Assembly: GCF_000003815.2 (NCBI RefSeq) | Contig: NC_049986.1 | Span: forward strand, 6,592,259 to 6,656,258 | Source of the DNA: Branchiostoma floridae | Taxonomy: Eukaryota > Chordata > Leptocardii > Amphioxiformes > Branchiostomatidae | DNA length: 64,000 bases | Reading direction: 5' to 3' | Made by a program: the position numbers and the translations under genes | Notes under the pieces: model-generated | What the model was told of the DNA's origin: nothing | Database searches by the model: none | Seen by the model: the letters and a program-made list of their open reading frames with translations, nothing else | In this document: positions 33,201-36,200 of the stretch, piece after piece | Numbering within the stretch: the first letter of the stretch is position 1 | How the letters are laid out: each line of letters opens with the position of its first letter

Positions 33201-36200
33201 GAAGATGGTTAATCTCAGATTTAGTGATGGCTGTGCTCAGTAATTGAGTAATCTTTTCAGCCTTGTCAAAACAAGGCGGCAGGCGGCGATTTTAGCCGCC
33301 TACTTACATTTTTCCAGCCGGCTACTTTGGGGTAGAATTTCGAAAAATAAAAGTTTACGTCCAGTGCTCCCTGTTACAAAATCCCCCAGCAATTTGTTTT
33401 GATAAACCTCTGGCAGTTTTCTGATAGTTGGCCCCTGGTTAGGGGTCATAGCGGGGAACCTATGCCGAATTTTTTTGAAATTCTGGATTTTTTTGTCAAT
33501 TCAAAGTTTAAAGATAACAATAAAAGTTAGCCAAAATACACCCCCAAACAATATTTAGGGGTCTAAATTTAAAAAATTTCCCAGGGGGAGGCCCCCAGAC
33601 CCCCATACGGGATGGGGGGACACCCCCCTCCCGTACCTACCCCCCGCTCGCCACTTCGTGGCTCGCCGCAAGCCGCTACGCGCCTTGCCTGCTACTTTCA
33701 TATATTAGCCCCCTACTCTAAAAGTTTGTGACAAGGCTGATCTTTGTTAAGTTGTCCAAACATAGAGGCACCACACCCTTTTCCTTCACTTCACACATCC
33801 GCAGAGACCCACATTATGACTACAAACAGGACAGTACACAGCACAAAGTAGAGGACTGCAAAAAATACCACACGAAGGAAAAATGGAAAGAAAAAAAAGA
33901 CTTAGAAACAGCCTTAGAAAGCTGGTGAGATAACGCAACTTTTTGCACGTGGCTAAGAAAACAGTTAAGCCGAATCCTGCCTAAATCTGTGGGGTACCCA
34001 CAGACATAGACAGGGTTGAAGAGTTACAAGTTAACCCACAGAATCTTGTATCTTTTGTGCCTCTTCTGTGACCAATGCTCCTCTGAAAGAAGTGGCAATG
34101 GCACAGAAGCTGTGAGAGATACGAGACTCCACACACTGAAGTGTCGGCACACATGAGAAAGAGGAAAAAAGTGGTGATTCTTGCATACCTATTATCTAAG
34201 TATCTCGATCTAAGGATCATTATGGCCTCGCATGTCGACTGTTTCAGTTGGACCTGGATGGCGTTAAACTTGCGTCGGATGATCGACACCATGCGATCGA
34301 TCTCTTTTTGCGTTATGGGTCGGATTTGGGACTGCTCCTTTAGCAGGCTTCTCACGTGCATGGTAAACTCGTTACAGGCCTGAAGGGGGACAGAAAGACA
34401 GGAAAGTGAAGGTCCCAGTCGGAGAATCAGCAAAAAAACGGACCCTTCAGCGGCACACCCCAGTGTTTCTGGCACAAAAGTACTGGTGCTAATGCTACAA
34501 GAACCCTCACTGCACCTGCCAAGGAAGCTTTGAAGGATTTAGGAGTAGCTTCATTGTAAAGTAGAGTAAAAGGGATTCAATCCTCTGTAGGCAATCTCTT
34601 TCAATGGAACCTATCTTGTTATTGATTTGAAAACCGAATTAGCCAAGAGGTTGTGACGTGACAAGGGAGTGCTGAGAGTGGTTTGGCAAAGACAATGGAC
34701 ATGGCTGTTTGCAGCATTTTCCCCGAAACCTTTGCACCAGAAAAACTGCAGAAGCCTAGAAGAGATTCTTGTGTGGTACATTGAAACGGCACCTGTAACG
34801 TGCTGTCCCACCCTAGTATACCTGGGCCTCCATTCTTTTTTCTGTTCTCGTCTTTCCCTTCTCTACATACCTAGCGTCTAGGAAGCGGGACCTAAGGATC
34901 ATGATGGCTTCACATGTGCTCTGTTTCAGTTGGATCTGGATGGCGCTAAACTTTTTACGGATGATGGAGATCATGCGTTCGATCTCCTTGGGCGCGATTG
35001 GCCGGATCTGGCTCTGCTCGCGGAGCAAGTTCACGACATGGGTGGTGAACTCATTACAGGCCTGCTTAGAAAGGGGAGAAGGTGCAGGTTTTGTCATGAG
35101 TACCTCGTCCTAAATATGTTACCACCAATGCATGCAAAATCCTGCTCTGTTGTTGCCACATCTACAATGCAATAAGACTTTCAAAGCGTTTGCTTTACAT
35201 GAATTTATGTTTGCATATCTCAAAATGGAAACAATTTACTCCATGCCACAAGTAGTTACACATCTTTACTTCTTAACAACATATCTTAACTTCTTAAAAA
35301 CAGCATCCCTGGTTCTTTATTACTGGTACTACAAGTTCAACTGGTACAAAATCGGATCAAGTTACTTCTATAAAGAGCAAAAGAACTTGCAGGAACAGTG
35401 TCAGAAATCATCATCATCATCATTCTTCCTAGTACAAATTATCAAACGATTTCCCAGTCTTAAATTTGATGTTACCAAAGTTGATTGCATTGTCTCTGTA
35501 CGCCAATAAGCCAAATTACCACTCCATACTTTTTTAACCCTTTCTGAATATAGCTACTTGTTACTTTGCATCTACTTGATGTAATGCAGAGCTGAGCCCC
35601 CTCCCCCCACTCCAGCCCCCTCCTCACCCACCTGTTCATACTTCTCCAGCTCTGTATGGTAGATCTGTCTGATCTGTGCCAGCTTCGCTCTGTAGTCCGA
35701 ATGTTCGATTGTGTTGTCTGCCTGGCCTGGGCTACCCCCTGTAACCAAAAAAAACACACTCAGCTTCATATCAGTAAGACTTGGACTAATGGTGACTACC
35801 AACAATAACCAGGGTTCTAGCCAGGATTTTATTTTAGCGTAGTGGGAATGGCACGGTAGCGAAGCGACAAATCAGGAGATTGGTGTGGAAGGGGGGGTCT
35901 TGGTCTTTCCACGGTGAGATTTGAAGATGTAGAGTTAAAAGTTAGGATTTTTGGGTCAGTTTTGAGTGGCATATCATCACTTTTCATTGTTCAGACATTG
36001 ATTAGTCATTGTTGAACAAGCAAATGACAGCAAAGCACCCCTACACTTGTTAAAAATTAGCGTAGTGGCCCTTATTTTAGCGTAGGGGTCACAAATTTTA
36101 GCGTAGTGGCCCACTACGCTAAAATGCACTAGCTAGAACCCTGAATAACTGTCAAGTATTATTTATGTATCGGACGTATTCATTATCATCAACCTCGCTG

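Follow-up and report, generated by a model that had tools for sequence, protein, structure and literature searches.

Tandem duplicated exons occurred in about 10% of animal genes according to a 2002 study cited in a review (PMC9013439), and five described systems were close enough to the locus reported here to be compared with it. (i) The Fgfr exons IIIb/IIIc, together with amphioxus IIIx, were mutually exclusive duplicated exons of a chordate developmental gene and were shown in amphioxus itself, but they encoded part of a receptor ectodomain and their splicing was demonstrated, while the pair described below lies in the gene of a Hox cofactor and its exclusive splicing is predicted (PMC5703972). 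(ii) In COE/EBF, an asymmetric HLH exon was likewise tandemly duplicated in a transcription-factor gene, with only one copy permitted at first by phase, and the same phase logic was described there for vertebrates; in the model of those authors, a new donor restored the phase so that both copies were included, while in Pbx the phase constraint continues to apply (PMC2394523). (iii) Exon 7 of Pbx1 (Pbx1a/Pbx1b) was the example of alternative splicing altering the properties of a Pbx protein, but it was a single cassette exon and not a duplicated PBC-B exon, and its skipping shifted the frame and gave a shorter protein (PMC4755740). (iv) CUX1, which is also a homeobox transcription factor but belongs to a different gene class, carried mutually exclusive clusters (PMC5740500). 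(v) In Dscam-type clusters with docking sites and selectors, pairing within introns could place one of the clustered exons in a loop, as would be the case for the candidate helix described below; unlike these clusters, Pbx displayed one candidate helix, with no conserved competing selectors shown (PMC6071210). The micro-exon of hth was considered as a further precedent and was discarded, mutually exclusive exons having been ruled out in that source (PMC7392893). Mutually exclusive tandem exons are thus already known in kind, and their occurrence in Pbx would be notable; no report of such a pair in Pbx/Exd was present among the literature matches listed, which is weak evidence of absence, since most subscription journals lay outside the scope of that search.

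The pair was located on the minus strand of the window (the whole 64,000-nt stretch of Branchiostoma floridae DNA analyzed) and was composed of exon c1 (34871..35061) and exon c2 (34189..34379). c1 and c2 were each 191 nt in length, entered in phase 0 and left in phase 2, and encoded the same part of PBC-B; they were separated by an intron of 491 nt, and all introns around the pair were of GT-AG type. The splice sites on the minus strand were acceptor ...TTTCTAAGCAG and donor TAG|GTATGT for c1, and acceptor ...CCCCCTTCAG and donor TAG|GTATGC for c2. The two encoded peptides shared 50 of 63 residues (13 substitutions), and the two nucleotide sequences differed at 50 of 191 positions, 27 of which were third positions. 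The initial annotation had proposed this pair with its length, spacing, good splice sites, equal phases, and identity, and every coordinate was verified.

Since 191 nt is not divisible by three, a complete Pbx is encoded only by messages carrying exactly one of the two copies. All joins were re-derived by script: (i) c1 joined to c2 gave a TGA once the junction codon and eight further codons had been read; (ii) with both exons skipped, the homeodomain exon had a TGA as its 16th codon; and (iii) with either c1 or c2 as the single copy, the frame was open from the upstream exon through to the homeodomain exon. The earlier statement that both double inclusion and double skipping lead to early stops, with the full frame available only to one copy, was thereby borne out. 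The pair thus displayed adjacent homologues of equal length and phase, both of them intact and constrained (see below), in a frame that needs exactly one, as is characteristic of a mutually exclusive tandem pair. Exclusive use is needed for a full protein, but splicing is not thereby made exclusive; from this reading frame, we infer that c1 and c2 are probably spliced exclusively.

The remainder of the gene was also recognized on the minus strand. The exon immediately upstream of c1 (35632..35738, 107 nt) ended in KYEQ with a phase 0 donor CAG|GTGGGT, and a further upstream PBC exon (37018..37167, edges approximate) ended in AAAASG. Downstream of c2, there were a first homeodomain exon (31884..32019, 136 nt, starting RKRRNF, with a phase 2 acceptor) and a next homeodomain exon (29217..29429, 3′ end approximate), the homeodomain matches of which fell below cut-off on this piece alone. 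With Pfam cut-offs of 25 bits for PBC and 24 bits for Homeobox_KN, the PBC scores were 105 bits for c1, 103.9 bits for c2, and 37.3 bits for the KYEQ exon, and the Homeobox_KN score of the first homeodomain exon was 40 bits; a PBC domain followed, after PBC-B, by a TALE-type homeodomain assigned the product to the PBC class (Pbx/Exd). The KYEQ exon and the AAAASG exon were separated by an intron (35738-37018) that followed a poly-alanine stretch and divided the PBC region upstream of KYEQ. In human PBX1, a single exon covers this region.

A profile search of the genome (513 Mb, 431 contigs) scored at least seven candidates and kept at least five PBC matches. Four of these five lay within the window (c1, c2, and two other exons). 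The remaining match was located 14.9 kb past the window end, on the contig and strand of the other four, and was interpreted as a further upstream exon of this Pbx gene. A search for a third PBC-B copy gave no match, either in the window (E up to 1) or in the genome (E up to 0.001), and the locus appears to be a single Pbx gene in which one exon is duplicated. Elsewhere in the window, three repeat arrangements were presented: two inverted repeats (13408-13888 and 15848-16374) with common ATGGATGACATC, perhaps members of one mobile-element family; 31-bp GC-rich inverted-repeat arms with 1.1 kb between them (22363-23507), one arm overlapping a 16-bp tandem repeat (23461-23491) that adjoined a 32-bp tandem repeat (23396-23475); and a tandem repeat with four copies of a 181-bp unit at 91% matches (43622-44321).

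Both copies are under purifying selection, and a neutral model is rejected also when it is applied to no branch other than that of c2. The Nei-Gojobori comparison of c1 with c2 gave dN 0.19, dS 1.28, and a ratio of 0.15. When 50 random changes were applied to c1, the mean was 31.4 amino-acid differences with a minimum of 21 in 20,000 runs, compared to the 13 observed, and 27% of runs were without a stop. In the codon model, w=1 was rejected (lnL -410.2 vs. -387.5 for the free model, which runs to saturation, so that w itself is not estimable); with equal times and c1 free, a neutral c2 branch gave lnL -402.1, compared to -390.6 with w2=0.1. Nor is c2 a chance likeness to PBC, because on its own it scored 103.9 bits against the cut-off of 25. 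Ungapped similarity between the copies stopped 3-5 nt beyond the exon edges (a 199-nt repeat), and therefore the duplication is probably old, with the exon retained. Five residues were common to c1 and c2 but absent from PBX1 and Exd, the PBX1 letters being partly verified against two papers; this would suggest a tandem duplication that postdated the split from vertebrates, with gene conversion as an alternative cause of the five shared residues. With both copies intact, coupled by frame, and held under purifying selection, it is very likely that two Pbx proteins are produced from a single gene; the pair is real and intact, and very probably functional.

The numbering of the exons was fixed to human PBX1 by the cross-linked peptide TRPISPKEIER with K195 (PMC7545097), and c1/c2 corresponded to PBX1 residues 171-233 plus part of codon 234. 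PBC proteins are essential Hox cofactors, and PBC-B of PBX1 spans 140-232 (PMC7985065); the duplicated exon thus covered approximately the C-terminal two thirds of PBC-B. The PBC-B heptad for PREP1/MEIS1 binding comprises PBX1 197, 201, 204, and 211 (PMC7545097), and this MEINOX-contacting heptad was the same in c1 and c2 except for I/V at 201. The initial annotation had proposed that one gene makes two Pbx proteins with different PBC-B surfaces; the two intact constrained copies favor two proteins, but since the heptad is kept in both copies, a Meis/Prep surface that differs between them is not the preferred interpretation. The likeliest functional difference, as judged from the substitutions, would be in signal-dependent nuclear localization or in an unmapped partner, not in Meis/Prep binding itself.

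Five PKA-phosphorylated serines affecting nuclear export were located in mouse PBX1 at 187, 193, 202, 209, and 218 (Kilstrup-Nielsen 2003 as summarized in PMC7985065), and all five positions, numbered via K195, fell inside the duplicated exon. The residues at these positions were S, A, S, S, and S in c1 and S, T, S, N, and S in c2; each copy thus kept four of the five acceptors but a different four, c1 being without 193 and c2 without 209, and K replaced R in c2 three residues before 187. Two of the five positions lost the acceptor in one copy, compared to 1.0 expected by chance from 13 substitutions in 63 residues, and hence there was no enrichment of changes at PKA sites; the difference in PKA acceptors between c1 and c2 is suggestive only.

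PBC-B is predicted to be mainly helical (PMC7545097), and the substitutions were placed on a helical wheel with assumed helix limits of 2-17 and 24-60. Eleven of the 13 lay within these assumed helices and clustered by face (P 0.022 for each helix, joint 0.0018), these P values being optimistic because the spacing was noticed before the test and the helix limits were self-chosen. In the second helix, the substituted face made an angle of about 106 degrees with the heptad direction and of about 30 degrees with 202/209, with 218 located elsewhere. No solved structure matched c1, the only query used, with an E up to 1.

The frame rule eliminates incorrect messages once splicing has taken place, but it does not explain how one of the two exons is chosen. 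Steric exclusion requires an intron below the size limit for splicing, and with 491 nt between c1 and c2 it was rejected; incompatibility of U2 and U12 sites was rejected as well, since the introns were GT-AG throughout and the donors GTATGT and GTATGC were compared with the U12 consensus. Two other ways of choosing, RNA structure and protein regulators, were considered on the minus-strand transcript.

The first would rely on an 18-bp helix, with its 5′ arm (34822..34839) spanning +32 to +49 downstream of the c1 donor and its 3′ arm (32995..33012) in the intron that follows c2. Formation of this helix would place c2 in a loop and join c1 to the homeodomain exon, while pairing failure would lead to use of c2. 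The helix contained one G-U pair and had an energy of -29.1 kcal/mol (-51.3 when extended with flanks); no other gapless helix was as stable in the 3.6-kb region between the upstream donor and the homeodomain acceptor. Its stability was matched by 0 of 100 and, separately, 1 of 600 dinucleotide shuffles of the introns, and when intron 2 was paired with intron 3 alone, 1 of 600 shuffles was as stable. The arms themselves were the sole two exact matches reported in the 513-Mb genome, and with one mismatch allowed there were two further places, the same number as for a backwards control; a repeat origin of the arms is unlikely. Docking sites downstream of an exon cluster are known elsewhere (PMC6071210), and in humans inclusion is lower on average for exons lying in the loop of conserved pairings (PMC8052449), both of which are in line with a loop around c2. 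Against it, 31 of 100 shuffles reached the length of 18 bp, and stronger helices were present among 15 other 3.6-kb tiles of the window, taken from outside the region and short of the final 2.6 kb (in 2 of 15 when the arms were separated by 400 nt or more, and in 3 of 15 at any span); moreover, this was a single candidate helix, found after several structural features had been examined. The c1 flank could also pair near the c2 acceptor (-31.6). Exclusion by RNA structure is accordingly a tentative proposal, and the helix is a lead only.

Other structures were also present in these introns. A long imperfect hairpin (34040..34130) lay at +59 to +149 after the c2 donor; the fold of 34040-34188 had z -3.37 with 0 of 200 shuffles as stable, the other four of the five folded stretches were unremarkable, and 34043-34135 matched only itself in the genome search. 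Pairing between the 60-nt flanks of splice sites (15 pairs tested, 200 shuffles each) gave no acceptable candidate: the upstream-donor flank with the acceptor tracts of c1 and c2 reached -32.7 and -42.5, respectively, but 103 and 77 of 200 shuffles were as good, and three further pairs were not convincing among 15, namely c1 donor with c2 acceptor (-38.0, 10/200), c1 donor with upstream donor (-24.2, 7/200), and c2 donor with c1 acceptor (-22.6, 6/200). No RNA family was found in the window at the curated cut-off, and a sub-threshold match of c1 to a bacterial-leader RNA was taken as chance. The intron preceding the homeodomain exon also harbored a perfect 16-bp inverted repeat (32174-32189 and 32711-32726).

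The second way would be exclusion by PTB/Rbfox-like protein regulators, for which the assigned binding motifs are pyrimidine tracts and TGCATG, respectively. The 60 nt before c2 were 75% pyrimidine, and TGCATG was found at 35136, 32894, and 32096; however, the tract after c2 was ordinary (about 9.6% of intron 40-mers being as rich). Repression of mouse Pbx1 exon 7 by PTBP1 (PMC4755740) fits a regulator of this kind; such control of c1 and c2 is likewise a tentative proposal. The hairpin after the c2 donor, the TGCATG sites, and the pyrimidine tracts would all be weaker leads than the 18-bp helix.

Taken as a whole, the preferred reading, to which we assign a probability of roughly 0.7, is an old exon duplication giving Pbx-c1 or Pbx-c2 by exclusive splicing, with nonsense-mediated decay (NMD) of wrong messages and a difference in localization or partner. 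Tandem duplication of one Pbx exon would have led to two intact copies, both kept by selection, of the part corresponding to PBX1 residues 171-233; messages with both copies or with neither would run into an early stop and thus be subject to NMD; Pbx-c1 and Pbx-c2 would have in common the homeodomain and the MEINOX heptad (I/V at 201), and would differ in another helix face and in which nuclear-export PKA acceptor is missing (193 in c1 and 209 in c2); and intron pairing may help exclusion, with c2 looped out when c1 is used. Both the decay of wrong messages and the localization difference between the two proteins are presumed steps of this scheme.

Two other readings concern the role of c2 itself. 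The presence of a further junction downstream of the double-inclusion stop would suit a poison exon, by which c2 (or c1) would mainly tune the level of Pbx through an NMD message while the c2 protein hardly matters; but a poison exon needs no protein constraint, while c2 shares 50 of 63 residues with c1 at a distance where silent sites are saturated and had a PBC score similar to that of c1, and this reading is improbable. As for decay of the exon, c2 had eight unique residues compared to two in c1 (with PBX1/Exd as outgroups), and with a human matrix the c2 donor scored 2.66, the weakest of four (c1 4.18, upstream 5.73, and homeodomain 8.3). These features would agree with c2 being a dying duplicate out of splicing use, but its open frame, exact length, two splice sites, and strong branch constraint make that very improbable. 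In favor of the preferred reading, both donors ranked high: among the 244 GTs in 31884-35738, three scored at least as high as the c1 donor and eight at least as high as the c2 donor, the donor itself being counted in each case.

Mammals have four Pbx genes. Under the preferred reading of two maintained proteins, a wider proposal is that cephalochordates split the control of Pbx by splicing and not by gene duplication, with an RNA bridge looping out c2, two sets of PKA sites, and two signal-dependent localization behaviors; in this full form it would be unlikely. If true, this protein-level switch in the PKA-controlled export cluster would mean that one Pbx gene acts in two ways in an invertebrate chordate.
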